From positions 1-26,374 of the forward strand of contig CALEZT010000265.1 of assembly GCA_937927975.1 (NCBI GenBank): 26,374 bases of DNA, read 5' to 3'. The translations under genes were made by a program, and so were the position numbers. The notes below the pieces were generated by a model. The model was not told the DNA's origin. It ran no database searches and was given only the letters and a program-made list of their open reading frames with translations. Shown here one piece after another: positions 4,405 to 24,267 of the stretch; the first letter of the stretch is position 1; each line of letters starts with the position of its first letter. The DNA is from an uncultured Phycisphaerales bacterium (GTDB taxonomy: Bacteria; Planctomycetota; Phycisphaerae; Sedimentisphaerales; Anaerobacaceae).

Positions 4405-5793
4405 TCACACCATGTATCCGATCCGGCCAATGCATCGGTTGCCGTACTTGTCCTTGTGGGGGTTCAGGCGGGTGACGTATTTATCTCGGCGGAACCGCTT
4501 CCCGCAAACCGAGCACTGGATAGTGTACCGCGATGCCGACCTGGGTGTAATCCGACGCCGGGTCTTTGTATGGATTGGCCGAACTCCGCCAAACGGGGTA
4601 CGTGCCCCTGGTCGCCCTTCAAAATAGAGGGAACTCGAAATCTCGCCCGCCTTTGTGATCTCAACAGGGAAACGCGGCTCAAAGGTCTCCTCGGTGTTCT
4701 CAATGGCCTGTATACCGTCGGCCACCAGCGCCTTGATTCCTGGACCGGATGAACCGCCCGTGCGATCATAGACGTAGAAGTATTCCCGCCCGATGCCGTC
4801 CTGGCGGACCTTGTAATCGAGCGAGTACGGCTCCACACGGCGGCGAACACCCTTATAGATCACGTCAAGCAGGGTAAGTGTGTGGCCGGCCTGCATGATC
4901 GGGTTGCGGAGCGGCGCCGGGAAGAACTCGGTCTGGCGCTGGACAACCGGAACGTTGCCGAAGAGGCTGATGATGAAATCCTGAAAGACCATCTGGACTT
5001 GGGAAAAGTCGATGCGTGCCCGGACGGGACAGACGATATAACGGTCCCAGAGCCCCTGAAAGGCAGCAAGCGGCAGGTCAAGAAAGAGCCCCTTGGCAAC
5101 GCCAGGGCTGTGACCGAAGATCGTCTTCTTGAAGAAAGTGCCGACGACTTCGCTGCGATTGACATCGAATTCCGGGTGGATCACGGTGGCGAAGACAAAA
5201 TCGAAGAGGTCCGCGACGTGCCGTCGCTGCAAAAGACACTTCATCTTTGACGCGAGTTGCTCCTCCAGCTTGACCGAGCGGATTTCGGCAGAACACGATT
5301 CGTAATCCGAGTAGTCATGGATCAGGCGGCGGGTTTGGACCGGCAGGTAGAGCCGGTCCATTTCGGTGACATCTAGGCGCACACTGATGGTCATTGAGCT
5401 TTCGACCCCGTAGAAGTCGCGAAAATAGACCCTCGCCTCCAAGACGCGGATCGTATCATCCGCGCCCCGCTTTGGCCGGGCCATTGTGCGCGACAGGTCG
5501 AATTTCACGCCCGCGTTGATAGCAACGAAACCGCAAACCCGGTTCAATTCGGTGGCAAAATAGTCAGGCGCGATGCTTCCTCCGGTGGAGAAGTCCAAGT
5601 CGGCGGAGTAGCGTCCGAACGGGAAATATGCCTTTCTGAGACAGTTCCCGCCTTTCAGGACAAGGTGCTGGCCAAGCTCGCTCTGCGTGTAGATCCCCGC
5701 AAGCAGCCAGCCGAAAATGTAGTCTCTTTGAACATCCGACGTATGGACGCCGAGTTCGATGGCCTTCTGATCGATTTCGCTGCGGTCAATCAC
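4405..5793 (-). CDS. AbiEii-type nucleotidyltransferase with WYL-like and zinc-finger C-terminus
   Basis: This 462-aa protein opens with an AbiEii/AbiGii toxin-family nucleotidyltransferase core: LKGGNCLRKAYF at 46-57, the metal-binding pair D65/D67 in SADLDFS, and a third candidate acidic residue at D141. A helical segment around 176-200 (EEQLASKMKCLLQR...DLFDF) matches the conserved AbiEii tail motif. AbiEii toxins transfer nucleotides to RNA targets such as tRNA and cause growth arrest. Residues about 303-380 resemble a WYL ligand-binding domain (IYKGVRRRVEPYSLDY, then REYFYVYD). The C-terminus has CSVC at 427-430 with H446 and C454, a likely zinc site. The start is GTG, overlapping the DUF6527 stop as GTGA. 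No AbiEi antitoxin gene adjoins it; its partners here are the Ubl genes. The family call is firm; its role as effector of the Ubl system is inferred. Confidence 0.8.
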   Translation of the reverse strand: MIDRSEIDQKAIELGVHTSDVQRDYIFGWLLAGIYTQSELGQHLVLKGGNCLRKAYFPFGRYSADLDFSTGGSIAPDYFATELNRVCGFVAINAGVKFDLSRTMARPKRGADDTIRVLEARVYFRDFYGVESSMTISVRLDVTEMDRLYLPVQTRRLIHDYSDYESCSAEIRSVKLEEQLASKMKCLLQRRHVADLFDFVFATVIHPEFDVNRSEVVGTFFKKTIFGHSPGVAKGLFLDLPLAAFQGLWDRYIVCPVRARIDFSQVQMVFQDFIISLFGNVPVVQRQTEFFPAPLRNPIMQAGHTLTLLDVIYKGVRRRVEPYSLDYKVRQDGIGREYFYVYDRTGGSSGPGIKALVADGIQAIENTEETFEPRFPVEITKAGEISSSLYFEGRPGARTPFGGVRPIHTKTRRRITPRSASRYTIQCSVCGKRFRRDKYVTRLNPHKDKYGNRCIGRIGYMV

Positions 5794-6239
5794 GAGAACC
5801 TCCTCTTGATCCTGGTCCAGAGGCTTTCCCTCGGCTTGCCCGTGGCCGACGGTGTGGCATTCGGCGTTACCTTTTCACTCGCCGGGGCCGGCGTGGCGGC
5901 GTAATACTTTTCCTTGGCCCTAGCGTCAGCAGCGCGGCCTCTGGCGATCTGCTGCTTGGTCCATTTCGGCACCCACACCACCTTGTTCTTCGTGATGAAA
6001 TAGTGCGACTGGCAGGGCAGGCTCCAGCTACCTATGGAGGGATAAAGCGAAACCGACTTGCCGTCTAAGATCAGTTGCCACCCCGTGGGCGACAGTGGCG
6101 TTACCACCTCCCTTCCGCATCCACAGCAGCACTTATGCACGGCAGTCCCATATGCCACGGAGATATACACTGTTCGCTCTTCTAACTCTTCGGGGATGTA
6201 CTCCACGAACTCATATGCGAGCGCAATATCAGGCTTCAT
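5790..6239 (-). CDS. DUF6527 family protein, Ubl-operon component
   Basis: This 149-aa protein has a compact N-terminal domain with clustered metal-ligand-like residues: CCCGCG at 37-42, then SPTGWQL, SLYPSIGSWSLPC with C76, and H79 followed by ITKN.VVW. This pattern matches DUF6527, a family repeatedly found next to multiubiquitin-domain and ThiF genes. Its function is not established; a zinc-binding role, possibly in Ubl processing or removal, is a guess based on context. The tail (about 95-149) is rich in A, P, T and K, looks disordered, and ends in a basic segment (WTRIKRRF). The gene overlaps the E1 gene by 11 nt and the AbiEii-like gene by 4 nt, so all three are probably translated together. 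No JAB/Mov34 metalloprotease gene is visible in the operon. Confidence 0.75.
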   Translation of the reverse strand: MKPDIALAYEFVEYIPEELEERTVYISVAYGTAVHKCCCGCGREVVTPLSPTGWQLILDGKSVSLYPSIGSWSLPCQSHYFITKNKVVWVPKWTKQQIARGRAADARAKEKYYAATPAPASEKVTPNATPSATGKPRESLWTRIKRRFS

Positions 6240-7428
6240 GTAGGTCCTCGGATATGAGTTGATTCGACCTTATCGTGTACGCACACCAATGCTCACTCGT
6301 AGCGTCGTCGTAGTAGCCGCAGAGCTTCTTCCATTTGATAACAGCGAGGGCGGCATTCAGTGCATTGATCTCAGCGATCTGGACGTTTCGAGAGTACTCG
6401 TCAGCTCCTTCGCCATCGGCGAAGGCAACGCGATTCGGCAGGTGGTCACGTTTACTCGGTATGCTGGTTGTGACCGTGACAATCCCACCAAGTTTGTTGT
6501 CATCCCCGAGCTGTATCCCCATCCCGACATCGATGAATGGCAGTCCCCATTCTTCTAGCCGTTCGACGATCAGCCGCTTGCCTGTTCCTTTGTCGATGCA
6601 GAGAAAAGCGAAATCTATCCCTTCGAGTTGCTCGACTGTATCTTCATCGACGAAACAATCGTGCCCGATGACATGCTTGTGCATCCGGGAGTAATTGGCA
6701 GCTAGATAATCGACCTTCTTCTGCTTCTTGGCCAGGTCGTCAAGCGACGCGGCCCCCGGGCACCTGAATGCATTATGGTTCAAGAAGACATCATCGTCAA
6801 AGAGATGAATCTCCGCCACGGGAGTCTTGGCAACCAGATCCAGTACGTAGGAGCCTGTTCCACCCGCTCCGATGATGGCCACTGTCCTGCCCTCCAACTT
6901 GCTGTTGGCAACGACGATTCCTGCCTTGGTCGCGGCCGTATCAACGTAGTTGAAGACCGACTCATCTTCATCTGGCACGACAACGGGGTTGGTGATGGCC
7001 GCAGCCATGGGATCAATGGCTTGGGCAGGACCGCTGACAATGGCGATGTACGTCGTGAGTTTCTCGTAGTAGTCCTGGTACTTGCCGGCAGTTGGCCCCG
7101 TCGTAGGCTTCCGTGATATCTGGTGGTTAGGGGTCAAACCCTCGCCAAGAGCCTGATTCGTATTCTGGCTGACTCCGGGGAGCACGGCGCCTTGCTCGTT
7201 GCAGGGATAATCTCCCACGAAGAAGACGACATGTGATTTCGGCTGGACCGTTGTCTCTCCAGCAAGGTCCAGGTCCGATACGATGGTCCCGCGCTCGACC
7301 TGCTTGGCGGAGTTCACATACGGGACGTTCCTGACAAGCAAGTGCTTGGAGGTCCCGATCGCAACATCATACCCGTCGGCCCGTAACCGACTGAGGTCGG
7401 CATTAAGACTGACCAGTCTCTGTGACAT
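6229..7428 (-). CDS. ThiF-family E1-like adenylyltransferase with N-terminal DUF6791
   Basis: This 399-aa protein has two parts. Residues 1 to about 145 match the DUF6791 type of N-terminal domain seen on bacterial E1s (HVVFFVGDYPCNEQG with C76; GKYQDYYEKLTTYIAIVSGPA). Residues about 180-370 form a ThiF/E1 Rossmann domain: IIGAGGTGSY at 185-194, FDDD at 210-213 for ATP and magnesium, and FLCIDKG at 275-281. E1 enzymes adenylate the C-terminus of a ubiquitin-like protein and pass it on as a thioester. C76 is one candidate acceptor cysteine, but the sequence alone does not prove this. The ATG at 7428 lies inside the end of the upstream multiubiquitin gene (26-nt overlap), fitting a tight Ubl-E1 pair. 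Confidence 0.87.
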   Translation of the reverse strand: MSQRLVSLNADLSRLRADGYDVAIGTSKHLLVRNVPYVNSAKQVERGTIVSDLDLAGETTVQPKSHVVFFVGDYPCNEQGAVLPGVSQNTNQALGEGLTPNHQISRKPTTGPTAGKYQDYYEKLTTYIAIVSGPAQAIDPMAAAITNPVVVPDEDESVFNYVDTAATKAGIVVANSKLEGRTVAIIGAGGTGSYVLDLVAKTPVAEIHLFDDDVFLNHNAFRCPGAASLDDLAKKQKKVDYLAANYSRMHKHVIGHDCFVDEDTVEQLEGIDFAFLCIDKGTGKRLIVERLEEWGLPFIDVGMGIQLGDDNKLGGIVTVTTSIPSKRDHLPNRVAFADGEGADEYSRNVQIAEINALNAALAVIKWKKLCGYYDDATSEHWCAYTIRSNQLISEDLHEA

Positions 7429-10778: not shown

Positions 10779-12116
10779 TTACAAGCGTAACACGTTTATT
10801 GACAAGTACTTACAAACGACATCTTCGAACTGTCGATCCGAAGGTTGAGGGTTCGAGACCCTTCGGCCTCGTTCTTTAAGTGTAGGGCCAGCAAGCACTT
10901 GTGCTCGCTGGCCTTCTTCGTTTCGAGGGTCAAACTGGGGCGCGTGCCAAGTGCGCGCCAAAACCGGACCAAGGGCGGCATCACTCGCTTGCCGAGCGCG
11001 ATCCACCAAATCATCCGCGACGGCCAAGTAGAACCGGTGGGTCGTCTCGAATTTCGAGTGCCCAGCCAGCCGCATGACCTCGTACTCCTTGAGGCCCATG
11101 CTAAACCAGTTCGTCAGGGCCGTGCTTCTGAGGTCGTGGAATCTCCCATCGGCGACACCGGCCCGTTTGCGAATCGCGGTGAACTGCGGCCGGAAGTTGT
11201 TGATCACCTTCAGCCGAGAGTCGGAATAGGTCCAATGCCCTGCCGCTCGACGCTTCTGGATTTGGTCGTACCGCTCCGGGGGCACGAAAACATAAGGGTA
11301 GCCCTCCGGCCGACTCGCCTGCAGATCGGCAAGCTGGGAAAGTACGGCCGGGGTCAGCCCCAAGGTGCGACGGTCCGTGTCTTTGACCCGCCAGAGCCAA
11401 GTCTCGGCGGAATTCGTCTTCGGCTGGACTTCGACAACACCGGCATTGAAGTCGATGTCGCCCCAGACAAGATTGAGCATCTCGCTCTTTCGCATTCCGG
11501 TAACGAGACCGAAGGCAATGAGCAAATCCCATTGCACGACCCAGCGGTCCCGCACTTCGAGCGATGACCGCAACAAACGGTCGCACTCGTCGCGGCTGTA
11601 GACCCTTACCTTCTTCTTCGGCGTCTTCGGCTGCCTGATGCGTGCCAAAGGGTTCTGGTCAAGCTGGCCACGATCAACAGCCAACTGGAAGAAACGCTTG
11701 AGGTGCCGAATCTTCTTGGCCACGGTGCCCGCGCTGTCGCCAGCATCGAGTCGGGCCTGCAGGAACCGCTCGGCATGCTTGTGGGCGATGCTTTGGTAGT
11801 CGAGATCGCCCACGACCTGGATGAAATCCGTCATGGCAGCCGCGTACTCCGCGCGCGTACTCTCGCGGATCTGATCGCCAGTGCGAGTCAAGCTGTCCTC
11901 GGTGAAGTCGGTCAACTTCATGGATTGCGGCTCTACAAACCCCATGCGCAGTTCGCGTTCCTTCTGGGTTCTTTCGAGTTCAGCTTTGCGGCTATCCGCA
12001 TGCCCCAGAGAAACCCGGTGCCGGAGACCATTCACATCAACGTAGTCGAGCATATAAACAAACTCTGTGCCGTCGCGTGACGGCCGTGTTCTGAGCCTTA
12101 CCAGCTTCTTGGGCAT
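10779..12116 (-). CDS. int: Tyrosine-family site-specific integrase
   Basis: This 445-aa phage-type integrase has an N-terminal arm/SAM-like region (about 65-155) and a catalytic domain with all key residues: R209 in VTGMRKSEM, H327 and R330 in FHDLR, H353 in LAGHS and the nucleophile Y363 in HRFYLAV. It catalyses recombination between element and host att sites. AAAGGAGG lies about 9 nt before the ATG at 12116. About the last 35 residues (after LAGPTLKERG) are encoded by a hairpin and the tRNA remnant, so the tail reflects the insertion site rather than integrase function. The gene points at that att site, as is usual for tRNA-targeting islands. Confidence 0.92.
   Translation of the reverse strand: MPKKLVRLRTRPSRDGTEFVYMLDYVDVNGLRHRVSLGHADSRKAELERTQKERELRMGFVEPQSMKLTDFTEDSLTRTGDQIRESTRAEYAAAMTDFIQVVGDLDYQSIAHKHAERFLQARLDAGDSAGTVAKKIRHLKRFFQLAVDRGQLDQNPLARIRQPKTPKKKVRVYSRDECDRLLRSSLEVRDRWVVQWDLLIAFGLVTGMRKSEMLNLVWGDIDFNAGVVEVQPKTNSAETWLWRVKDTDRRTLGLTPAVLSQLADLQASRPEGYPYVFVPPERYDQIQKRRAAGHWTYSDSRLKVINNFRPQFTAIRKRAGVADGRFHDLRSTALTNWFSMGLKEYEVMRLAGHSKFETTHRFYLAVADDLVDRARQASDAALGPVLARTWHAPQFDPRNEEGQRAQVLAGPTLKERGRRVSNPQPSDRQFEDVVCKYLSINVLRL
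10825..10871 (+). repeat. tRNA 3'-end remnant, likely att site
   Basis: The sequence folds as the 3' half of a tRNA. An anticodon arm (stem TCGAA/TCCGA with one A-C mismatch, loop CTGTCGA) is followed by a variable loop AGGTT, a T-arm (GAGGG, loop TTCGAGA, CCCTT), a 7-nt acceptor strand CGGCCTC and a G discriminator. No D-arm or 5' acceptor strand precedes it, and CCA is absent. A tRNA 3' end beside an integrase gene is the classic product of island integration. If the reading is right, the anticodon would be GTC. No second copy was found rightward within the window. Confidence 0.65.
10886..10913. terminator. Strong hairpin with T-rich 3' flank
   Basis: GGCCAGC-a-AGCAC and GTGCT-c-GCTGGCC pair around a TT loop, with a single A/C mismatch. 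On the plus strand it is followed by TTCTTCGTTT. It lies inside the integrase 3' end, just past the tRNA remnant. It may be the original tRNA gene's terminator, copied with the att site. Confidence 0.5.
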
Positions 12117-12472: not shown

Positions 12473-13117
12473 CTACTCCTTACGTAGACGGCTATACCCC
12501 GCCGGGACGCATGTGTAGATGTCTCCCAAAGGTGAGAAAGCCGTGGCAAACCGATCCGGTCTGTCGCCTAGATAGACCACAACAGAGGGGAATGGGGCAG
12601 AGTTTTGGGCATCGCCAAACTTAAGACGACCAGTGACAAAACACTTGGGGTATGGCCGCAACACTCGGAACCACTGGGTATCAGTGCGGGCCGGTAGAAG
12701 AGCAATAGCCTCGCGAACGGATCCCGCCTGATAGGCGTCGTGTAGTTTGCGTATCCAGGCCCCGATTTCCCGCCCATAGGGCGGATTCATATAGACACGG
12801 CCCGCCCATGTCTGCTTCAAGCCGTCCTCCTGTTTCGTATAGTGCCTCTTGGCCGGAACGTTGGGACGGACCTTTGAGTTGCTGCAGGGGTCCATGTCGA
12901 TGGAGCCAAGTACGTCCAGCACGTAATCGACGATGTGACTCGGCGTGTTCCATTCGGGGCTTGCACTTGAGTAGAAGACGCCAAGCCGTCTGTCATTGCC
13001 AATCTGGGGCACTTCGGCTCCCATGCTGGCCGCTGCGGAAAACGACTTGTGACTGGTCCTGACCACATACTCATTATCCGGAAACGCCGCACAATAGTCC
13101 CAGACACGTGAGGGCAC
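12473..13117 (-). CDS. Phage-type DNA N6-adenine methyltransferase (Dam-like)
   Basis: This 214-aa protein matches the phage N-6-adenine methyltransferase family. It has EWNTPSHIVDYVLDVLG, IDMDPCSN (SAM-binding side), DGLKQTWAGRVYMNPPYGREIGAWI with the catalytic NPPY motif, and LLPARTDTQWF. It transfers a methyl group from SAM to adenine in DNA, often to shield phage or island DNA from restriction. The start is uncertain: 13117 is a GTG with no good ribosome-binding site, and an in-frame ATG at residue 32 (13024) would leave the family domain complete. It heads the MTase-xis-int cluster and sits close to the divergent structured-RNA region. Confidence 0.87.
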   Translation of the reverse strand: MPSRVWDYCAAFPDNEYVVRTSHKSFSAAASMGAEVPQIGNDRRLGVFYSSASPEWNTPSHIVDYVLDVLGSIDMDPCSNSKVRPNVPAKRHYTKQEDGLKQTWAGRVYMNPPYGREIGAWIRKLHDAYQAGSVREAIALLPARTDTQWFRVLRPYPKCFVTGRLKFGDAQNSAPFPSVVVYLGDRPDRFATAFSPLGDIYTCVPAGYSRLRKE

Positions 13118-13245
13118 ATAAGAGGCAGTTTGAAGTCAAATAGAGGCAGAAAGAGCCACTTGGCGTGGAGAAGACCATCTTGCGTCCCGATGGACCCGAA
13201 TAGGTGCGTCAGTCTCGACGGAGGGTGAAGATGACTAAGGTTTCA

Positions 13246-13301
13246 GTTTGCGTTATCCTGGTGGCGATGAAACAGTGTTTCATCGGCGTCAGGACGCAAA
13301 C
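13246..13301 (+). ncRNA. Long near-continuous hairpin upstream of domain V
   Basis: GTTTGCGT pairs with ACGCAAAC, CCTG with CAGG, and CGATGAAAC with GTTTCATCG around an AGT loop. That gives about 21 bp of stem in 56 nt. It may be part of the structured RNA or a separate regulatory hairpin near the methyltransferase start. Confidence 0.5.
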
Positions 13302-13405
13302 ATGTGGACTGGCAACATCAATGTGAACTCCGACACCCGGTAAACCCGGCCTCACCAGCCAGGCTAAGGGGGCGGTCTCATCAACCGTCATGTTGGAGGC
13401 ACGTA

Positions 13406-13439
13406 GAGCCGGATGCATCGAGAGATGCTCGTCCGGTTC
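13406..13439 (+). ncRNA. Group II intron domain V
   Basis: This 34-nt element has every hallmark of domain V, the catalytic core of group II introns. It starts GAGCC with the AGC triad at 13407-13409. An 8-bp lower stem pairs GAGCCGGA with TCCGGTTC. A two-nucleotide CG bulge lies on the 3' side at 13430-13431. An upper stem GCATC/GATGC is capped by a GAGA (GNRA) tetraloop at 13420-13423. One U-U mismatch replaces the usual pair beside the bulge. No reverse-transcriptase gene precedes it. Confidence 0.82.
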
Positions 13440-14340
13440 GAGGGAGGCTGCTGTAAGTAAACCTCGTCAAGAGTCAATCTACAGCTTCTATCCCATGCTT
13501 TGGCGGAATACGGGCGACCGAGACAGACCGGGCTTAGGCCCGGCCGTGGTGCTCGAATGGGTGATGCCGACGAAGTCGGCTAATCCCTCCGGGGGGTTCG
13601 GAACGAAGGATGCCTTCGGTTCGTTCAACCTGGGCCGCCGTGGGGAGCCTGCACGTGGTGACGCGTGCAGCCGGGCCAATGACAAGGCTCGGTGTTCGGC
13701 TGAAAAGGCCGACAGTGAATAGCTCAACCATGAAAGGGGCGTAAGGCCCTTGGCGGTAAGCGCAAGCGGAGACGGTGCCGAACAGCGTTAGAAAGACCTT
13801 TCCTGGCGGGTAAGGGAGAGCTTCTAGATTCTGCTCCCAGAAATCGCTCGGAGCCCATCCGAGTGGAAACTATGCCGGGGCGGGAGCCCTGGACATACAG
13901 GAACTGGTCAAGCGACGTGACCGCTCGTGCGAAGAGTAGCACTAATCGGGGAAGGACTGAGGCTGCCGGCGTGATACCCGGTGCCCGTATGTCAGACGGG
14001 TGTTTCAAAGGCCTTAGTCCGGGAGAGTGCTGCAAGTAGAAGTCCCTGCGGGGAACGAGTCCATGGCAAGGCAGTCATGGGCCGCTGGAGTGCTGACGGG
14101 TGGTGCCGGGCACAGATCCACGACGAAAGCAGCGACGTGCATCTTTTTCACATTGATGAGTCTGTAGGCGGCTTGCCTGCGTGTGCAGGCGGGCCGCCGG
14201 TGCCTCGGAAGAGGACCACATGGTCAGAGCAGACCGCGCCGGAAGGCCGGTCTGCTCTGGCAGCGTTCTGGTGTTGCCGGAGTGGATTGCAGATCCATGA
14301 AGGTTCAGCAGCCGCTACGTCTATGAATTGCGATTCCACC
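13406..14340 (+). ncRNA. Candidate circularly permuted group II intron or large structured RNA
   Basis: Domain V comes first, followed by a possible domain VI (GAGG..AAACCTC region, about 13440-13482, ending in CTAC as a possible 3' splice site). Some 850 nt of densely base-paired sequence follow, which could hold domains I-IV. In normal group II introns domain V lies at the 3' end; the reverse order is known from circularly permuted bacterial group II introns, which release an RNA circle instead of ligating flanking exons. The 5' splice site is not located: GTGCG at 13926 and GTGAA near 13711 are both possible. The right limit is set at the last big hairpins and is approximate. The alternative is a truncated intron 3' end beside an unrelated structured RNA. 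Confidence 0.45.
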
Positions 14341-14483
14341 ATTAAAGGAATTTAGCAGGCCAGGATGAAGCAGGCGCAAAAGGTTGTTGCGGCATCTCCA
14401 GTACAGGTGCCGCTGAAGGTTCTTCGAGTGCATCGATGCAACAGGGTTGAAAGGAGATGATTCACTTGCGTGACACGGCTTTG

Positions 14484-14507
14484 GGGAATTGTGCCTTAAC
14501 AATTCCC
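14484..14507 (+). promoter_or_regulatory. Leader hairpin just upstream of the 14534 gene
   Basis: GGGAATTGT and ACAATTCCC form a perfect 9-bp stem around GCCTTA, followed by ACCTTTTAAG. The ribosome-binding site GGAGGTG starts about 15 nt later. It could be a weak intrinsic terminator acting as an attenuator, or the 3' end of the upstream RNA. Confidence 0.5.
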
Positions 14508-14533
14508 ACCTTTTAAGCAGTTGGAGGTGAACC

Positions 14534-15268
14534 ATGATGTATCGTCACGTTGCAGCATCGCAGAATGCATTCGTTCAGCAGTTGGCCGTCGCGTATGTGA
14601 ATCACGGATACTGGTACTTTGTCACAGGCATTGTTCCGGGCCATAAGGAAGCGTCCGCCGTGGATGAGAAGCTGATTGAGAAATACAACATCGCCATCAG
14701 CAAGTGGGCACGGGCAAGGCGTAAGCAGCAGGGTCTCGCAAACGTCCATTACCTGCGGCACGAGCAGTTCTTCGTCCTCATTGCCACACAGGGCGAACAT
14801 TCGTTCTTTCAGGAAGAAGGTGCCAACATCAAGGACGTTCGGCGGTGCCCCATTCGCTTCGCTGGCTACAGCATCAGCTATCGTCAAGGCGTGGATCGGA
14901 AATGGCATGCGTCCGTGCGGATTCAGCCTGAGCAGTACAACATGATGAAGCAGTACTACGTAGATCTGGCCGTCCACCGTTCTCTGGAGCAAATACGGGC
15001 AGAACTGGAGTCGGTTCCATTCGAGCCCTATGCCCCTGTGAGGAGACAGGTGCTCAATATCCTGCGAGCCATCAACCGAGCACGCAAGAAGGCTGGATTC
15101 GAGCAGGTTCCTGCTTCGGCGTTGCGGCTGCGACGGCAGATACTGCGTCCTTTTGCTGATGAGGAAGGGGCTAACTCAGACGATGATGAAGCCACGGTGA
15201 CTCAATGGGACTTGACGGAACAGAGTTTCTCTGAGTCACTCGCGAAGTACCGTCCGAGTGACAAGTGA
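14534..15268 (+). CDS. Unknown conserved-looking 244-aa protein downstream of the structured RNA
   Basis: I cannot assign this protein to a named family. It is soluble, basic in the first two thirds and acidic at the tail (DDDEATVTQWDL). Segments that look like conserved blocks are YVNHGYWYFVTGIVPGHK, ISKWARARRKQQGLANVHYL, FFVLIATQGEHSFFQEEG, PIRFAGYSISYR and VPFEPYAPVRRQVLNILRAI. Regularly spaced basic patches (RARRK, RARKK, RLRRQ) would suit nucleic-acid binding. It has a strong ribosome-binding site, GGAGGTG, before a double ATG (14534 and 14537), so it is a real gene. It is the only gene immediately downstream of, and on the same strand as, the permuted-intron-like RNA, and it converges on gajB. 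It lacks reverse-transcriptase, LAGLIDADG and HNH motifs. An RNA-binding partner of the RNA is a hypothesis. Confidence 0.8.
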   Translation: MMYRHVAASQNAFVQQLAVAYVNHGYWYFVTGIVPGHKEASAVDEKLIEKYNIAISKWARARRKQQGLANVHYLRHEQFFVLIATQGEHSFFQEEGANIKDVRRCPIRFAGYSISYRQGVDRKWHASVRIQPEQYNMMKQYYVDLAVHRSLEQIRAELESVPFEPYAPVRRQVLNILRAINRARKKAGFEQVPASALRLRRQILRPFADEEGANSDDDEATVTQWDLTEQSFSESLAKYRPSDK

Positions 15269-15340: not shown

Positions 15341-17284
15341 CTATGCTGAGAAGACAGTCCCTACTTCGGGCAGGTCAAGTTCCATCTCCTGAAGAAAACG
15401 AGACGGCTGCTTGGGCCAGCCGAAGTATTGATCTGCAAAGGTCAGGGTTAGCGTGAGTTGTGCCCGCGTAATGGCGACAAAACAATTCCGTCGTTCCTCC
15501 TGCATTTCGCGGCTCGCATCGCCTTTCTTGATCGCCTGGAAGGAAGGAAGCTGATCCTCGGCCAGCGCAACAAGATAGACGTGCTTGAATTCCATGCCCT
15601 TTGCCGAGTGGATAGTGAGGCAGCGAACCGCGTCTGGTGGAATAGGCGGGGATTTCTCGGAGAGGTCGAACTCCTGCAAGAGCACGTTCAGGGTCAGGTC
15701 GTCACGCCCATATTTGTTTATGGTTCGGGTCTGCAACTCTTCCCATATGGCTTTCTCATCATCAAAATCGGTGAAGCCTTCCTCATTGTGACCATCAAGT
15801 TGTCTATTCTTCGTGGTAAACCATGCGAGAGCATCGTGAATAGTGGATAGACAGTCCATTCGATCCACAATGGAAGCCTGCACGTGATCAAGAAAGACCC
15901 TCGTTTGCGCTTCGATTGCAGGGCGGCTCTTCACGGATTCTAACCAGGATCGCAGATAATCGCCATTGAACTGAGGGGCAGTCGCTACTACGTCTGAGAC
16001 CTGCACATCGATTCCTTCGAGTTCGTAGAACGCCTTGCATGCGCGGCGGAGCTGGTCTCGGTCTGCCCTAGAATTCGCAAGACGCAAAATAGCGTGCAGG
16101 TAACGGAATGGGGCACTGGTGAATTCTGCCTTGCGGACTGTTAGTGACGCACTGATGCCAGCAGCTTCGCACTGGGTCACGGCGGCTTCGAGGACTTTAC
16201 GTGTGCGGGCAAGAATGGTGCAGGAGCCAGTCTCCCCACCGTGTTGCTCTGCTATGTCTTGAGCAATCCAGTCTAACTCGCTATCAAGTGAGTCGAAATG
16301 GCAGACGCGAACAGTGGCATCACGTGTGGCCTGCTTCATGGCATACAAGGGTTGCTTATCAGCAGCTCTATCCAAGTTATGTCGGATCAGCCGGTTGGCC
16401 AAGACGATGACCTCTGGCGGGCAGCGGTAATTCGCCGGTAGCTGTAGAACGTGCATCTTGAAATCATTCCGCAACGCCTGTAGACGTTCCGGGCTGGCAC
16501 CGTTCCATTGGTAGATAATCTGGTCGTCATCCGCTACGACAAACAGGTCCTTCGGCGTATCGCCTACAATCGCCTTTAAGAGTCGGTATTGAGTAAGGTT
16601 AGTGTCTTGGAACTCATCAACGCAGACGCTGGGGTAGACAATACGCAATTGCTGGGCGACTGCCGGACGTTCATAGAGCAGACGCAACGCCAAGAGGAGA
16701 AGTGAAGCAAAATCTAGTCTGTTATTGACAATCAACTGATGCTGGTATTCGGCGTACAATGCGGCGAGCTTACGCGCAAAGTCCTGGTCGCGGACAACTG
16801 AAGACACTTCGGCGGGAGCAATGTAGTTATTCAGCAAGCTATCGATGCTGGGCAACAGGCGTACATCGCCGGAGTCAGTGTCAACGCCAGTCTTGGCGAC
16901 AACTTGAATTGCATCGGCTAGAACTGCCTCTCGGTCAGCATCCTGATTCAGGATGGTGAAGTCAGGTTTTATACCAACGTGACTTCCGTGTTGACGGAGG
17001 ATATCGGCACAGAAGGAGTGGAACGTGGTGAGAAGCACGCGATCACAGCAATCGGGGACCATCTCTTCCACGCGGGACCGCATTTCCGCAGCGGCCTTGT
17101 TAGTGAATGTCAGTCCGAGGACACGAAATCGCTTACCTGGCGAATCTGCTAACAATCTCGCGGTTCGCATTGTCAAAACACGGGTCTTCCCAGAGCCGGG
17201 TCCAGCCAACACGAGTAAGGGGCCTTCGTTCCAGTCGATAGCAATTCGCTGGTTCTCGTTCAGTTTCTCCCGGTCGATCAGCAT
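15341..17284 (-). CDS. gajB: UvrD/PcrA-like helicase, Gabija GajB
   Basis: This 647-aa superfamily 1A helicase has Walker A AGPGSGKT at 27-34, LTFTNKAAAEM, TTFHSFC, Walker B DEFQDT at 223-228, ADDDQIIYQWNGA at 251-263, LPANYRCP, the late motif TIHSAKGMEFKHVYLV, and the arginine-finger motif VAITRAQ. Its start overlaps the end of gajA by 7 nt. A UvrD-like helicase directly downstream of an OLD-family TOPRIM nuclease defines Gabija, where GajB works with GajA to cleave or degrade phage DNA when nucleotide pools fall. It is longer than the best studied GajB of about 500 aa, so it belongs to a larger branch of the family or carries a longer 2B domain. Confidence 0.87.
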   Translation of the reverse strand: MLIDREKLNENQRIAIDWNEGPLLVLAGPGSGKTRVLTMRTARLLADSPGKRFRVLGLTFTNKAAAEMRSRVEEMVPDCCDRVLLTTFHSFCADILRQHGSHVGIKPDFTILNQDADREAVLADAIQVVAKTGVDTDSGDVRLLPSIDSLLNNYIAPAEVSSVVRDQDFARKLAALYAEYQHQLIVNNRLDFASLLLLALRLLYERPAVAQQLRIVYPSVCVDEFQDTNLTQYRLLKAIVGDTPKDLFVVADDDQIIYQWNGASPERLQALRNDFKMHVLQLPANYRCPPEVIVLANRLIRHNLDRAADKQPLYAMKQATRDATVRVCHFDSLDSELDWIAQDIAEQHGGETGSCTILARTRKVLEAAVTQCEAAGISASLTVRKAEFTSAPFRYLHAILRLANSRADRDQLRRACKAFYELEGIDVQVSDVVATAPQFNGDYLRSWLESVKSRPAIEAQTRVFLDHVQASIVDRMDCLSTIHDALAWFTTKNRQLDGHNEEGFTDFDDEKAIWEELQTRTINKYGRDDLTLNVLLQEFDLSEKSPPIPPDAVRCLTIHSAKGMEFKHVYLVALAEDQLPSFQAIKKGDASREMQEERRNCFVAITRAQLTLTLTFADQYFGWPKQPSRFLQEMELDLPEVGTVFSA

Positions 17285-18990
17285 TGGCTAGCCTCCGCAA
17301 GAGAAATTGCATCTTCAACGATCTTCTTTAGAGAGGACGGAACAGAGGGCTTCCCTTTCTGCCGCATGGCCGTCATAACCTCGCATATACGCGATGGCTT
17401 CTCCTTGCTGGGTTGGGCATCTACAACTTGCTCCCAGTAAGCCGGAGTACCCTTGACCGAGGTGACAGTGGCTTTCTTCTGTGGAGATATGTGGCTCTCG
17501 TAGATCTGGCCAAAACCTGCTGTACACAGCAAAACTTCGATGTTAGGGGACGGAAGAAGACATATATGTTTTGCCTCAAGGCGTCCTGCCAAGTACCTTT
17601 TGCATGTCTTGGCATCATCTTGCCCGTGTTTGTCTCCGTCGCCAACGAACAACCAAGCAATACCGAAAGCATTTGCGGTTTTGAGGAGCGGCTCCACGCC
17701 TGAATGACTTGTGTTCACGATACGTACTCCTGATCGATCCATGTCATGCCCGAGTATATCGGCAACCTCCCTAAACGCCCAGAACTCTGACTCGCCCTCC
17801 CCAAGAAGCCAACAGCGGGCGAAGAGGAGTTCGCCTCTCGCGCTTTGAATGTGGAAAGACACCTTCTGTTCCTCGTCTGGAGTCAGCGTGTTGGGCTTGA
17901 GGGACTTGACAACAACTGAGCCATTTTCAAAGCAGAAGCGACGAACCGAACCCAGGGGCACGCGGCCAAGCAAGTCGCCGGAATGCGTGGCGATGACCTT
18001 CTGTCCGGAGATTGCCTGAAGTGTATTCCAAAGCGAGCGGATAGCACACGGATGGAGGTGGGCTTCAGGTTCTTCAAGAGCCAAGATAGGCTGGCTCAAC
18101 TTGTCATATTGTTCAGCGAGCATCGTTGCGAGAAAAGCCTCGAAGAGAAAGATGACTGCAAGACTTTGCGTGCCAGCACCGTGATGCGTGAGCGGAAGTG
18201 GCGCTCCGGTTCCAGCCGTGACATTGATTTGGGCTCTTGCGAGCAAGTCAGTAATGCGTCCAGGAAGGGCTTCGATGTCAACTGTACCGGCTTTGCCAGA
18301 GGCCACAACTTTCTGGACCTTGGCCAAGTGGGTCTTCAAGGACTGGAGCGATCCGTGGGCCGTGAGCACTTGCTTGTTGAGCGAGTTGATTTCGACTTGC
18401 AGTTTCTGGCGTACATCATCAGGGATTGCAGCGCTCTTGAGGAAGGGAGCCCAGAACATGGATCGACCTTGAAACTCACGGGAAGCATCGCGAAGCGCAG
18501 AGAGATAGAAGAACGGGACAAGCTGGACGAATGTGGCAAGCGTCTGGGGGCGTTTGATCCTCGGTCCCAGTGCATGTCCCTGGGCGTCGAGGAAGTCCCA
18601 ATCGGAAGTAAAGCCTTTGAGCGTTTTGTCGTACGAACTCGTGGTACGCAGGATAACGTGAGGCACATTAGCATCATCGAAAACACGTATATCGCCAAGT
18701 GCCTGAACCAACTCGTCAGGGGCCTTGGCGTCGGTGACAAAATCCAGTGTGATGGCCAGTTCCCCGGTCTGGTCCGGCTGGGAAGCTGCCGTGGGCAGAT
18801 GGTAGTCGTACTGATCTAACCAGTCGCTGCGACGGAAGCTGCTGCGTGCAAGACACAGTTTGATGCCCTCCAAAAAGCTCGTCTTGCCGCTGTTGTTCTC
18901 GCCGATAAGAACCGTGGTCTGGTCAAGCGGAACACTGATATCTTTGAAGCAACGGAAGTTCTTGATTGTGACAGAAGTTAGCTTCAACAT
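17278..18990 (-). CDS. gajA: OLD-family ATPase/TOPRIM nuclease, Gabija GajA
   Basis: This 570-aa protein has an ABC-type ATPase split around a helical insert: Walker A GENNSGKT at 30-37, signature GAGTQS at 271-276, Walker B LALEEPEAHLHP at 303-314 and the H-loop THS at 335-337. A TOPRIM nuclease domain follows, with E398 in LLGEGESE and D451/D453 in FVGDGDKHG. Its size and layout match GajA, the site-specific DNA nicking subunit of Gabija held inactive by normal NTP levels. AAAGGA precedes the ATG. It lies 42 nt after the type III res gene and overlaps gajB, so it is probably transcribed with the restriction system. Confidence 0.9.
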   Translation of the reverse strand: MLKLTSVTIKNFRCFKDISVPLDQTTVLIGENNSGKTSFLEGIKLCLARSSFRRSDWLDQYDYHLPTAASQPDQTGELAITLDFVTDAKAPDELVQALGDIRVFDDANVPHVILRTTSSYDKTLKGFTSDWDFLDAQGHALGPRIKRPQTLATFVQLVPFFYLSALRDASREFQGRSMFWAPFLKSAAIPDDVRQKLQVEINSLNKQVLTAHGSLQSLKTHLAKVQKVVASGKAGTVDIEALPGRITDLLARAQINVTAGTGAPLPLTHHGAGTQSLAVIFLFEAFLATMLAEQYDKLSQPILALEEPEAHLHPCAIRSLWNTLQAISGQKVIATHSGDLLGRVPLGSVRRFCFENGSVVVKSLKPNTLTPDEEQKVSFHIQSARGELLFARCWLLGEGESEFWAFREVADILGHDMDRSGVRIVNTSHSGVEPLLKTANAFGIAWLFVGDGDKHGQDDAKTCKRYLAGRLEAKHICLLPSPNIEVLLCTAGFGQIYESHISPQKKATVTSVKGTPAYWEQVVDAQPSKEKPSRICEVMTAMRQKGKPSVPSSLKKIVEDAISLAEASQC

Positions 18991-19032
18991 TCAGTGCGGT
19001 CCTTTCTCTGTGCGACGTATCGTGGCTACGTT

Positions 19033-22000
19033 CTACCCCTGAAGCTGCTCGGTGAAGCTGGTGTAGCTACTTGCGACCCTAAACCGGACCTCGGTGCCAA
19101 GGGCCTTGAAGTGTTCGCGTCCACAGTCGATTTTTGCCTGCTCTGCCGGGCGCAGGGCGTCAGTCAACAGGGTGCTCTTGGACTCCACCACGAAATACAA
19201 TCGCTGCTGGCCGTCCACTTCCACCAAGACGGCCCAGTCGGGATTGTAGCTGCCCAGCGGCGTGTCGATCTTGAACCATCCGGGGAGCTTGGCGTAGACC
19301 TTCACTTCCTCATTCACCTCGAAGGACCGGGCGAATTCTTCCTCCACGTCCGAGTCATAAACGACGTGGTCGTAAACCGACTTCTCGCTCTCCAGCATGT
19401 TCTTGCTGAGATAGCCGTACAGCTCGTTCTCCTCGAAAAGCTCCTGAGCGTAGTAGTCCTGGTCGCCGATCTTCTGGTATTTGATGCCATCCACGATGAA
19501 CAGCCGCATCTGGTGCTGAATGATTGCCAGAACCTGCTCGATGTACTTCTGCGGGTTGTTCTTGAAGTCCTGGAGCCGGTCGCTCCGCTGGAGGATCTCT
19601 ACCAGCGTCCGCCGGGTCAGATTCGTTTCGTTCTGGAGGTAGCTCACCACGTCGGGTAGCTCGAAGTCCTTGGCCTCGTAGACGTGGGTGCTTTCCTTGG
19701 TCAGCTTGCCGTCCACGCCGCCTCGGTCAATGCTCGTCAGGCGTTCCCAATAGGCAAACCGGGCCTTGCCAACCACAAGTTTCTTGGCAATCTCGTCCGC
19801 ACACTTACGGATCAACGCCTCGCAATCGAAGTCCACGCGGAAGGTCGTCTTGTACTTGATCCGCTCCCAAAGCTGCTTGAACTCGTCCCCCAGAAACACG
19901 GCCTTGTTCAGCTTGACCTGCTTGCGGTCGGCCTCATTCTTGATGTTCAATCCACCCGCAACCTTCTTGAGGGCAGCCATGATCTGGGGGGCATAAGGCT
20001 GGACCGCGGGCGGCAGGTCAACATTGTTGTTCTTCAGTGCCGTACGCAGGGAATCCTGGACGTGGCCCCCAGCGTCAATGTACCCCTTGTCCTTCAGGTG
20101 GTTGAACACCTGCTCGGATGTCTCCACGCCAAGGTACTCAGTCTTGTGATCGTCGGTTGGTACGGGGATGTTTGCGAACAGGTGGCGTTCCACAACGCCG
20201 AACTTGATGCCCTCTTCGTCCTCGATCTCCTTCTGCAACTGCCGGGCGAAGTCCTCGTAAGATTCGTTCGCCATGACGGTCAACGTGTTCACGTCGAAGC
20301 CGTACACACGCTCGCCGTCCTGGTTCACCGCAATGCGGAGCCCACGTCCGATTTCCTGCCGTTTCTTCATGACGGAAGTGGTTTCGTTCAACGTGCAGAT
20401 CTGAAAAACGTTCGGATTGTCCCATCCCTCCTTCAGGGCGGAATGGGAGAAGATGAACTTCAGTTTGCAGTCGAAGCTGAGCAACCACTCCTTGGCCTTC
20501 ATGATCGTGTTGTAGGCGCTCTCGTCGGCCTGGGCGGTTCCCTCGCCGCGCGAGTCCTTGAACACTTCAACGCTTTGGCCTGAAGCCGTCTTCTTCTTGT
20601 CGATGGCGAAGTAGCCGTCATGGACGCCCTGGGCGGCCGTGTCCAGGTCCGCTCCCTCGAAGAGGATGTGGTACTTGGGCTTCCGGACGGCACGGGCATA
20701 CTCCTCTTCGAACATGGTGGCGTATTTGCCTGGCTGCGGGTTGCCGTCGTCATCATACCAGCGGTAGTTCGCCACGCGGTCGATGAAGAACAGGCTCAGA
20801 ACCTTCAAGCCCCTGGGGCGAAGCACCAACTCCTTGTCCAGGTGCTTCTCGATGGTCTTGCGGATCTGGAGTCGCTTGTATTCGTCGTCGTTCACCTGGC
20901 CGATAGCCTGGTCCAGCCGCACGATCTCCGGCTTGCTCGTGAAGCTGATGTACTCGTTGCCCTTTTCGCAGTAGATGTCCTCGATGATGTAGCCGTCGTA
21001 CACGTCCCGGCCGCGGGAAAGCTCCAGCAGGTCGTTGCCGCTGCGGACCTTCTTCTTCATCCGCTTGGCCTCGCCGCTCCGCTGCATCACATCCATCTCG
21101 ATCTGGGCGGTGATCGGGCTGGTCCTGTTGTCCACCTTCAGCAGCTTGACGTAAGCTCGGTTGTGGCTGTCCTGCACCTGGATGCCCGCAACCTCGATCT
21201 GCTTGACCAGCTTGCGTTCATAGGCATCTACCGAGTCCAGCCGGTACATCATGTTGTACTTGTCCACGTGGGTCGCGGAGAATCGCAGCGTGCAAAGCGG
21301 GTTCAGGCTCTCGATGGCCTCCTTGCTCTTGGCCGTCGTGTCCACGCTCTGGGGCTCGTCGATGATGACAATGGGGCTGGTCGCCTGGATGAACTCAATC
21401 GGGCGGCTGCCGGTCATCCGGTCGTGCGGCCGGTGGATGATGTTGGCCTTGTCTTCCTTCTCCGGGTCGGTGAAGCTCTTGCGGAAGGCATCGATATTGA
21501 TCACCATGACCTGGATATAGTCGCTGGTAGCGAAGTTGCGGACCTGGCCAAGCTTCTGTGAGTCGTAGACGAAGTAGTCAAACTGCACGTTGTCGTACAG
21601 GCCCTTGAAGTGCTCGTCCGTCATCTGGAGGGACTTGTTGACGCCTTCCTTGATCGCCAGTGACGGCACCACGATGATGAACTTCGTGAAGCCGTACTTG
21701 CGGTTCAACTCGAAGATCGTCCGCAGGTAGACGTAGGTCTTGCCCGTGCCAGTCTCCATCTCAACGGTGAAGTTCATCCCGTCCAGGGTCTCCGAAGGGG
21801 CAAGGCCGTTGCGGAGTTGGATCGCCTTGACGTTCTTGTGGATGTCCTCCGGCAAGAGGCGCAGCCGGTTGCCCACGCCCAGATCGGAATGCTGCATGAA
21901 TTCAAGATAGTCCGGATGTTGCTGGAGCGGCGCAACCGTGAAGTTGGTCCGGCAGACCTCCTGGCCCTCGAAGATGTCCACGATGGCGTTGATGGCTTCC

Positions 22001-22038
22001 CGCTGATAGGTGAGGTCGGGATTGAATTGGAACTTCAT
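19033..22038 (-). CDS. res: Type III restriction enzyme, Res subunit
   Basis: This 1001-aa protein has an SF2 helicase/translocase core: Walker A METGTGKT at 94-101, VVPSLAIKEGV, the DEPQ box at 227-230, FSATH, then SALKEGWDNPNVFQICTL and QEIGRGLRIAV. A C-terminal PD-(D/E)xK nuclease shows D934 in YNPDWAV, then E952 and K954 in VVESKST. Type III Res partners with Mod: ATP hydrolysis lets two head-to-head sites communicate, and cutting follows about 25-27 bp from the site. The start overlaps the RhuM stop by 4 nt (ATGA). All motifs are intact, so the nuclease is predicted active. Confidence 0.94.
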   Translation of the reverse strand: MKFQFNPDLTYQREAINAIVDIFEGQEVCRTNFTVAPLQQHPDYLEFMQHSDLGVGNRLRLLPEDIHKNVKAIQLRNGLAPSETLDGMNFTVEMETGTGKTYVYLRTIFELNRKYGFTKFIIVVPSLAIKEGVNKSLQMTDEHFKGLYDNVQFDYFVYDSQKLGQVRNFATSDYIQVMVINIDAFRKSFTDPEKEDKANIIHRPHDRMTGSRPIEFIQATSPIVIIDEPQSVDTTAKSKEAIESLNPLCTLRFSATHVDKYNMMYRLDSVDAYERKLVKQIEVAGIQVQDSHNRAYVKLLKVDNRTSPITAQIEMDVMQRSGEAKRMKKKVRSGNDLLELSRGRDVYDGYIIEDIYCEKGNEYISFTSKPEIVRLDQAIGQVNDDEYKRLQIRKTIEKHLDKELVLRPRGLKVLSLFFIDRVANYRWYDDDGNPQPGKYATMFEEEYARAVRKPKYHILFEGADLDTAAQGVHDGYFAIDKKKTASGQSVEVFKDSRGEGTAQADESAYNTIMKAKEWLLSFDCKLKFIFSHSALKEGWDNPNVFQICTLNETTSVMKKRQEIGRGLRIAVNQDGERVYGFDVNTLTVMANESYEDFARQLQKEIEDEEGIKFGVVERHLFANIPVPTDDHKTEYLGVETSEQVFNHLKDKGYIDAGGHVQDSLRTALKNNNVDLPPAVQPYAPQIMAALKKVAGGLNIKNEADRKQVKLNKAVFLGDEFKQLWERIKYKTTFRVDFDCEALIRKCADEIAKKLVVGKARFAYWERLTSIDRGGVDGKLTKESTHVYEAKDFELPDVVSYLQNETNLTRRTLVEILQRSDRLQDFKNNPQKYIEQVLAIIQHQMRLFIVDGIKYQKIGDQDYYAQELFEENELYGYLSKNMLESEKSVYDHVVYDSDVEEEFARSFEVNEEVKVYAKLPGWFKIDTPLGSYNPDWAVLVEVDGQQRLYFVVESKSTLLTDALRPAEQAKIDCGREHFKALGTEVRFRVASSYTSFTEQLQG

Positions 22039-23159
22039 GGCTTCGCGCCGCCTTCCTTGTCTTTACCCTGGATGCGTTTGGGCAGGCTCTTGGCCGCGTC
22101 TTCAAGGGCCTTGATCGTGTCCTGTTCGCCTTGGGCCTCCTTAAAGGTCCGGCGACGTTCGGCGAACCGGTCGTACTGCTCACAGGCAAACGCATCGGCT
22201 TGTGCCTTGCTGATGTGCCCCGCATTCGTGAGCACGTTGCGTTCATTGAATTGCAGGAACTCGTTGAGCCGCTGCTCCCAATCCTTCATGAACACCTGCT
22301 TGCGGCGTTTGGCCTGGTCATCGGCGAAGTCCAGCCACATCACAACAATCCTGTTCAATTCGTCAATTTCCTCCGCCTTCAGATAATTCTTGGCGACAAT
22401 CACGTCGGTCTTGCGGACCTCGTCGGACTTCCACGATGTCAACCCCATATTCGGCAAGGCGTGGTTTGCCCGGCTCTTGATCAACTCGGCCGCCGTCATG
22501 CCGGTGGCGGCGAAATGCAACTTGTTCTGGATCGTTTGGAAGAATCGCGTCGTCTGCTCGGATGACGGCTCGTAATCGGCCGCCATCGCGAAGATTTCCC
22601 TCACCCGCAAGTACATCCGCTTCTCGCTGGCCCGGATGTCCCGGATGCGTTCGAGCATCTCATCGAAGTAGTCCGGCACGCCCAAGCCTGGGGCAGGCGG
22701 GTTCTTCAGCCGCTCATCGTCCAGGACAAAGCCCTTGAGCAGGTATTCCCGCAACCGTTCCGTCGCCCATCGGCGAAACTGGGTTCCACGCTGGCTCCGG
22801 ACGCGGTAGCCGACGGCCAGAACGGCATCCAGGCTGTAATGCTCGATCTGTCGAGTCACCTGACGGCTGCCCTCCTGGCGAACTATTCGATAAGATCGAA
22901 TAGTTGCCCCAGAGTCGAGTTCCTTGTCTCCGTAAATCTCTTTGATGTGGTGATTTACGGTGCCGACGCCGATTTGGTAAAGCTCAGCTATCATGGCCTG
23001 GCTCAGCCAGATCGTCTCGTCCTGGAAACGGCATTCTACCCGCGTCCTGCCATCCTCCGTCCGATACAGGAGTATCTCGCCCTGCCCGGCGGGGACCATT
23101 GCGCCTCCATTTTCGGGCAAGGGGGTAGGGAGCTTGTCTTCATCTTTCTTCTTGGCCAT
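22035..23159 (-). CDS. rhuM: RhuM family protein
   Basis: This 374-aa protein matches the RhuM family. It has an N-terminal DNA-binding-like part (DETIWLSQAMIAELYQIGVGTVNHHIKEIY, then YSLDAVLAVGYRVRSQRGTQFRRWAT). A helical C-terminal domain (MTAAELIKSRANHALPNMGLTSW, KNYLKAEEIDELNRIVVMWLDFAD) is often compared to Fic/DOC-related folds. RhuM genes are frequent passengers in type III and type I restriction loci; the biochemical role is unsettled, with regulation or toxin-like activity both proposed. It is translationally coupled to res (ATGA), implying co-expression. Its own ribosome-binding site is weak. Confidence 0.87.
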   Translation of the reverse strand: MAKKKDEDKLPTPLPENGGAMVPAGQGEILLYRTEDGRTRVECRFQDETIWLSQAMIAELYQIGVGTVNHHIKEIYGDKELDSGATIRSYRIVRQEGSRQVTRQIEHYSLDAVLAVGYRVRSQRGTQFRRWATERLREYLLKGFVLDDERLKNPPAPGLGVPDYFDEMLERIRDIRASEKRMYLRVREIFAMAADYEPSSEQTTRFFQTIQNKLHFAATGMTAAELIKSRANHALPNMGLTSWKSDEVRKTDVIVAKNYLKAEEIDELNRIVVMWLDFADDQAKRRKQVFMKDWEQRLNEFLQFNERNVLTNAGHISKAQADAFACEQYDRFAERRRTFKEAQGEQDTIKALEDAAKSLPKRIQGKDKEGGAKP

Positions 23160-23214
23160 TTGTCAGACCTTGACTTCGGATTGCAGATTCATGATTGTCG
23201 CTTTGTTCATACAG

Positions 23215-24243
23215 TCACCCCCACACCTTCGCGCTGGCCGCATCAAAGAACCGAACGTCGAGTTTGTTGCGACGGCCAGAATTGTCTCGGCCTTCCCGAA
23301 ACAGCTCAGCCCGCGCGATGATCCGTTTGTTGTCCTTGCTCTTCGCGTCACCGTAGATGCTCACGTATACTGCCGTGACTCTGCCCTTCTCAATCAAACG
23401 CAGAACGTGTTCGTCATTGGATGCGAGAGAGTGGCCGTAGATGAAGAGCGATCCAGACACTGAGGGAAGACTGCGATACCCTCGGCTAAGGAATGCGCTG
23501 TGCTGAACCCGCTGCATTTTCGAGTCGGAACTCCCCTCAGCTACGTAGATCGGATACCGATTCTTCCCAAGGGCGTCACGAATCTGCTCTACCAGGGCAA
23601 CGCCTGTATTGCACCAGGTATATTTCTGCACCTCGGCCCCCGCATCGAATATATGCAATGCTCCGTGCATGTAGAAGACGTTCTGTGACCCGACATCACT
23701 GACCTCCCAAACGACATACTCCTCCGGCCCGTCCTCGGGCTGGTGGAATCCGTCATTGCAGGCTATGCTCAGATCATCAACGTCCTCGTGCATCAATGCC
23801 CAGTACAGCAGCAGGTCGTAATTGAGCGTGTAGATGTTTTCGAAGTGGGACAGAAACGCCCGGCAAGACACAAACTCGCTGTCCTCGATCTTGTTCGGCC
23901 GCTCTGGATGACTGCTGGCAATCGCCTGCGCCAAAACGTCGCGTAGCTTATCAGCGTCAGTCGCCAATCTTTGGGCCAGCTTGGGTCTGGTGGGGGCATA
24001 CACCTTAACCAAGTCGGCCGCCTGCTTCAGTGCTCGCATGACTGATTCAAAGTCAGTTGTGTTCAGAGCATGGAACGCTTTCTTCGCACCATCCGACAAT
24101 TTGCCCTTCGCTTGCTTGAAAAGGGCCTCATAGGCAAACAGATTGTTCCGACAGGCGCGACTAAATCCATTGCCCAGCAGCAGGTGCCGCTTGCCGCCAT
24201 CGGCTTGCTTCAAAGCCTGATCGAATGTCAGCAACTTGACCAT
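23215..24243 (-). CDS. DUF4917 family protein, SIR2-like
   Basis: This 342-aa protein matches DUF4917. It starts with a nucleotide-binding-like loop (LLLGNGFSRACRNNLFAY), has the SIR2-like pair IYTLNYDLLLYWALM and FYMHGALHIFD, then a Rossmann-type closing segment (SGSLFIYGHSLASNDEHVL). These features recall SIR2/SIR2-like NAD-consuming effectors of anti-phage systems, in which NAD depletion kills the infected cell. That activity is inferred from fold-level similarity, not shown here. GGAGG precedes the ATG at 24243, which lies 24 nt after mod. It sits between mod and rhuM, so a likely backup abortive effector is built into the restriction operon. Confidence 0.8.
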   Translation of the reverse strand: MVKLLTFDQALKQADGGKRHLLLGNGFSRACRNNLFAYEALFKQAKGKLSDGAKKAFHALNTTDFESVMRALKQAADLVKVYAPTRPKLAQRLATDADKLRDVLAQAIASSHPERPNKIEDSEFVSCRAFLSHFENIYTLNYDLLLYWALMHEDVDDLSIACNDGFHQPEDGPEEYVVWEVSDVGSQNVFYMHGALHIFDAGAEVQKYTWCNTGVALVEQIRDALGKNRYPIYVAEGSSDSKMQRVQHSAFLSRGYRSLPSVSGSLFIYGHSLASNDEHVLRLIEKGRVTAVYVSIYGDAKSKDNKRIIARAELFREGRDNSGRRNKLDVRFFDAASAKVWG

Positions 24244-24267
24244 GACTCTCGGCCCTCCATGTGAACG

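Follow-up and report, generated by a model that had tools for sequence, protein, structure and literature searches.

A 26,374-nucleotide (nt) stretch of DNA from an uncultured Phycisphaerales bacterium (GenBank contig CALEZT010000265.1, analysed whole and hereafter called the window) very probably encodes a circularly permuted (CP) group II ribozyme beside a gene of the AcpG family. The components stand in the order P1-P2-D5-D6-linker-D1-D2-D3-D4 (D, domain), followed by acpG on the same strand. The RNA class is already published: Roth et al. (2021, PMC8637638) describe CP group II ribozymes ("T-large" RNAs), for example from Thermus thermophilus pTT8 and Comamonas testosteroni, with the order P1-P2-D5-D6-D1-D2-D3-D4, a 5' motif GGGCG, a 3' motif NU, circles of 15–86 nt, and a D5 with an AGC triad and a UN bulge. 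According to that report, these RNAs are active in vitro and AcpG has no known relatives. The new part is the reading of the protein. We propose, as the probable explanation, that AcpG represents the intron-encoded protein missing from CP group II ribozymes, a dead and fingerless reverse transcriptase (RT) kept as a separate gene; an RT origin for AcpG appears not to have been proposed before.

Domain Order of the Permuted RNA

D5 occupies 13406–13439 and D6, with the 3' splice site, 13442–13496; these and all features below lie on the forward strand unless stated otherwise. The Rfam group II model RF00029 matches 13404–13496 (cmscan, 51.3 bits, gathering score 40, E 1.6e-7), and no other Rfam family reaches its gathering score anywhere in the window. 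D5 has the features that define the class, with AGC at 13407–13409 and the bulge UCG at 13429–13431, as well as a GAGA tetraloop. For structure counts, D5 and D6 of 12 sequences from 11 loci were cut and joined by hand, the D6 tip being omitted; the pTT8 RNA (locus L001) was excluded because its D5 is too divergent. In this set 96% of cells are paired and 15 of 25 pairs show changes on both sides, while the D6 helix has double changes in 9 of its 12 pairs. Covariation scores 0.586, compared with 0.176 for shuffled and at most 0.130 for slid alignments. The D6 pairs leave A13490 bulged, and the column of this branch-point A is invariant in all 12 sequences.

Upstream of D5, the minimum free energy fold of 13240–13402 (z −3.17) contains a P1-like hairpin (13247–13301) and a P2-like hairpin with the loop UCACCA (13345–13363), the latter enclosed by a helix at about 13328–13335/13390–13397. 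Both are aligned in loci L028 and L029, and the P2-like hairpin is seen by eye in further loci. By their position, these are read as the P1 and P2 stems of CP group II ribozymes.

Downstream, eight loci align from 13512, and their conservation extends to about 14136 and then falls off. Their consensus fold, predicted on the same eight-locus alignment that shows the covariation and without a shuffle control, comprises several domains with covarying helices: a closed domain at 13518–13949, a second at 13954–14020, a purine-rich joint at 14021–14026, and a third at 14027–14136 containing the E-loop-like AAGTAGAAG. In our reading against the description by Roth et al. (PMC8637638), these are D1 (13512–13949 with the 5' splice site GGGCG), D2, J2/3 and D3. 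Two strong but little conserved hairpins, delimited by eye at 14160–14265, are tentatively assigned to D4. No Rfam model for other intron domains matches upstream or downstream of D5, so that Rfam is uninformative on D1–D3, and their downstream placement rests on the covarying fold and on the pairing between exon-binding site 1 (EBS1) and intron-binding site 1 (IBS1) described below. The gene-free stretch ends at 14533, and the next open reading frame (ORF) starts at 14534, behind a ribosome-binding site (ggaggt, 14523–14528). Between D4 and the acpG leader (14340–14480), AGGTT(C/T) motifs recur by eye, as they do in L026 and L028.

A first-pass annotation of this DNA had inferred a circularly permuted group II RNA, and the D5-D6 match, downstream fold, EBS1-IBS1 pairing and splice motifs all support that inference. 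Its 34-nt domain V at 13406–13439 is confirmed by RF00029 and by D5/D6 covariation, and the dense hairpins it saw in place of a gene after domain V correspond to the eight-locus fold up to about 14136, with no gene until 14534. It had also named a good match to domain I upstream of 13406 as part of a refutation; none was found 5' of D5, where the relatives share hairpins only. Nor is there an RT gene before domain V, as it had said, the upstream neighbours being a Dam-like methylase (12473–13117) and a tyrosine integrase (10779–12116), both on the reverse strand and identified by Pfam scan. An RT gene deleted from homologous loci, which it had named as a possible refutation, is likewise not seen: seven genomes with such loci give no sign of an RT gene deleted from or next to the locus, the RVT_1 matches being distant or on separate contigs. 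A canonical group II intron, with D1 5' of D5 and an RT in D4, was rejected, as D1–D3 are read downstream and the Pfam scan of 16 window ORFs found no RT family.

Splice Sites and Proposed Reaction

D6 ends in ...UAUCCCAU|13497, and GGGCG begins at 13512. From the D6 end and the motif, the 3' splice site is placed at 13496/13497, with a predicted cut after U13496, rather than near 13482 as first annotated; the 5' splice site, formerly sought in 13700–13930, is placed at the GGGCG of 13512. These motif positions predict an excised RNA circle of joined "exons" at 13497–13511, 15 nt in length; in Leptolyngbya (L002) the linker has 12 nt, under the published range. Within the window's linker, the IBS1 sequence GGAAU (13505–13509) pairs with AUUCU (13828–13832, approximately EBS1) of a hairpin in D1 at 13814–13838. 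Over the 11 loci, all of which were retained in the test, the 7-nt IBS1/EBS1 pairing scores 61, compared with a mean of 51.8 under permutation (p 0.001), with 5 of 7 pairs formed in the window and 4 of 7 in both L027 and L029. Loop-loop complementarity between P2 and D2 was noted by eye in some loci only.

By analogy with the in vitro reactions of Roth et al. (PMC8637638), A13490 would attack the 5' splice site (13511/13512), after which the freed 3'-OH of C13511 would attack the 3' splice site (13496/13497). The 15-nt circle would then leave, while D5-D6 would stay joined to D1–D4 by a 2'-5' branch, and the acpG message would probably also be carried on the branched RNA. We infer from this analogy that the RNA is catalytic; likewise, RNA and acpG are presumably co-transcribed, and AcpG presumably binds the RNA. 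A promoter scan found none.

Linkage of the RNA to AcpG

When the search is started from the protein, each of the 11 full-length loci examined in the window's AcpG branch carries the permuted RNA 5' of the gene and in the same orientation. The set comprises the window itself, three plasmids (from Leptolyngbya, a planctomycete and Calothrix) and seven genome loci; in the nine loci measured by script, D5 lies 1050–1383 nt from the acpG start. One of four matching Leptolyngbya records was used, and L006–L008, L017–L023 and L069–L073 are copies of loci counted as L024–L030. In alignment A11 identical rows were merged (the window with L029, L024 with L030), and L026, which is without the motif, was left out.

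The element is patchily distributed: it occurs in 5 of 246 genomes of Planctomycetota, in 1 of 398 of Pseudomonadota and, within a single planctomycete family, in 1 of 89. Every one of these counts takes in its centre genome, selected for carrying AcpG. A D5-only RNA model matches 24 of the 246 Planctomycetota genomes, and the five with AcpG rank first; since these five loci were in the model, their ranking is by construction and this reverse test is not independent. This leaves the odds unaffected, because the linkage was found from the protein side. Among 30 loci fetched for RNA-model matches (33 places listed), 5 have AcpG and 8 a canonical RT gene, and the flanks of the other 17 show neither; AcpG is in 0 of the 25 beyond the five used for the model. 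One locus with neither gene, L074, lies close to the end of a contig and resembles a CP remnant. AcpG was not found in viral contigs; the pattern GGGCGACCGNGACAGAC occurs in 8 of them, and no D5-D6 was seen in the 170 nt before each.

Group II introns are frequently fragmented, and the canonical RT genes beside 8 of the 25 fetched loci without AcpG could likewise suggest that a normal intron was rearranged or decayed here, with no conserved permuted function. This explanation is highly improbable, however, as 11 loci spanning Planctomycetota, Cyanobacteria and Thiocystis share the permuted order, the splice motifs and the EBS1-IBS1 pairing, with compensatory changes, and such conservation already contradicts decay.

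Two further arrangements were observed. The Calothrix plasmid (L004) carries two copies of the CP RNA (at 1125 and 3276) that share 92.8% identity over 623 nt; one acpG was seen within 9 kb. On plasmids or contigs of Gluconobacter and Acetobacter, an AcpG-like N-terminal part lies within a longer protein of 388 amino acids (L005, 4646–5812, reverse strand), and no CP RNA was found within 11 kb around this partial relative on the Gluconobacter plasmid.

The AcpG Protein and Its Proposed Origin

The ORF at 14534–15268 encodes a homologue of AcpG of 244 amino acids, which belongs to no Pfam or NCBIfam family; of 2321 candidates, 1963 qualify as its relatives (E up to 1e-3). Among the matches listed (120 relatives), the three with an organism given come from Phycisphaerae or Planctomycetes; the AcpG alignments (A1, 28 rows; A4, 79 rows) were built from these 120 and from the loci. 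The window ORF has no BLASTP similarity to TTHC007, the AcpG of T. thermophilus pTT8. The two families nevertheless align by profiles over 159 columns (hhalign probability 90.4, P 1.4e-6), and a hidden Markov model (HMM) of the TTHC007 branch matches the window ORF at E 2e-7, with few loci searched. Thus, the profile alignment and HMM match place the ORF in AcpG.

We consider it likely that AcpG descends from an intron-encoded RT, having kept palm and thumb (X) and lost the fingers and catalytic aspartates, and that it serves as a folding factor, or maturase. In structural comparison, the best long neighbours of AcpG are group II intron RTs (8fli_B, 6me0_C and 8t2r_D), over palm and thumb, and the AcpG-versus-RT profile alignment runs in register through motif C, motif E and the thumb. 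YxDD is absent from all 79 members of A4; the pattern occurs in 1 of 64 members of A5 and 1 of 46 of a combined set, by eye at motif C in neither. The Pfam matches of the 79 members include no RT, and a PDB profile search with AcpG returned no RT match.

Direct profile comparison with RTs gives weak results. By hhalign, RT profiles score P 0.024 and 0.38 with A4 and 0.24 and 0.76 with A5, and a set of 22 RTs P 0.027 with A4 and 0.27 with A5. The combined AcpG profile reaches P 0.012 (score 27.0) against the 22 RTs and P 0.013 against 8 group II RTs, compared with scores of 9.2–16.4 for the reversed and 8 column-shuffled control profiles. Trimming of columns raises the score to 28.8 (P 0.0051), and 1 of 300 block-shuffled profiles scores higher (30.9). 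A second 8-member group II set gives P 0.11, and other kinds of RT 0.23–0.72. When 272 non-AcpG ORFs are ranked with an AcpG HMM, RTs take 5 of the first 10 places and 10 of the first 30, and they account for 34 of the 180 ORFs reported, against 42 of all 272; no score exceeds 7.0 bits, and the top ORF is not an RT. Sequence alone does not prove RT descent. We regard it as less likely, though still appreciably probable, that AcpG is not RT-descended but an unrelated RNA-binding partner or a mere neighbour, in view of how common the combination of a palm-like sheet of the RRM type with a three-helix bundle is. The first annotation's "no reverse transcriptase" stands for an active RT only, as the next gene belongs to the AcpG family and resembles a degenerate intron RT.

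If AcpG is RT-derived, the break behind the permutation would lie within domain IV of group II introns, next to the ORF, with two introns arranged head to tail as the simplest starting point; such breakage would give D5-D6-exon-D1-D2-D3-D4-ORF. The class would thereby gain both an origin and a helper protein whose task can be predicted, and binding and splicing could be tested directly. The 1963 relatives of this AcpG branch are, in addition, a means of finding more CP RNAs.

Leader and Genomic Neighbourhood

A leader pseudoknot lies upstream of acpG at 14477–14507, where GGC pairs with GCC of a hairpin loop. The form GGCUU(U/C)-(8 bp stem)-GCC-loop was found by strict search just 5' of acpG in 8 of the 11 loci (the window, L003, L024, L025 and L027–L030), with a GGU/ACC variant in Leptolyngbya; its covariation is 0.571 against 0.232 shuffled, and it has no Rfam match. 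The same search gave 21 matches in 99 sequences, which by reading are all at AcpG starts and are the 8 distinct loci counted repeatedly. In five phage contigs that lack AcpG (L099–L103, apparently three distinct sequences), the leader also stands 5' of small genes, and because of this it was dropped as an AcpG-specific or CP feature. It may be a regulatory RNA that has yet to be described.

The window constitutes a defence island (518–7428 and 15341–26187), with a DrmD-like helicase, AbiEii-like, DUF6527 and ThiF/E1-like genes, Gabija GajA/GajB and a type III restriction system that encloses RhuM and DUF4917 genes. These many defence genes, together with a TIR-domain gene and a large helicase near L028, could point to a defence or counter-defence module whose branched ribonucleoprotein or circle acts on invading nucleic acids, and Roth et al. 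(PMC8637638) name defence as a possibility. We think this improbable, as no effector was recognised and other loci adjoin plasmid replication or partition genes or integrases (20 flanking ORFs at seven loci scanned). Genes for integrases, replication or partition in the vicinity of several loci suggest that the CP element is a passenger or helper of mobile elements.

Comparison with Known Systems

The RNA resembles the CP ribozymes described by Roth et al. (PMC8637638) in its D5-D6-D1-D2-D3-D4 order, GGGCG and NU motifs, bulged A, EBS1-IBS1 pairing, short linker, nearby acpG and lack of a classical intron RT. Similarity in sequence to the pTT8 RNA is weak (blastn E 0.13), the D5 model has no match on pTT8, and the two RNAs share by eye the start GGGCGACC..GACAG. 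The main text of that report gives Deinococcus-Thermus, Firmicutes and Proteobacteria as hosts, whereas the loci here belong to Planctomycetota and Cyanobacteria; acpG is 3' of D4 on the same strand in 11 of 11 loci, whereas mixed orientations are reported there; and the window's circle equals the published minimum, that of Leptolyngbya falling below it. The window protein shares with TTHC007 profile-level homology, the same partner RNA, a similar length and the same structural neighbours, but cannot be aligned to it by BLASTP, and its branch has 1963 relatives against 81 in the TTHC007 search (best 7998 candidates scored).

The group II intron RT/maturases 8fli_B, 6me0_C and 8t2r_D are themselves the best long structural neighbours of AcpG over palm and thumb, and AcpG shares their position after D4; unlike them, it lacks fingers, YxDD and any detectable family match, and is a separate gene that would act in trans. 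Prp8 is the dead, RT-like core of the spliceosome, and has been proposed to be a former intron RT that now serves purely as an RNA scaffold. If our reading of AcpG is true, bacteria would possess a ribozyme that stands on its own and is served in trans by a dead RT as its scaffold, paralleling the spliceosome and Prp8, although Prp8 is far larger and eukaryotic and the parallel is one of analogy only.
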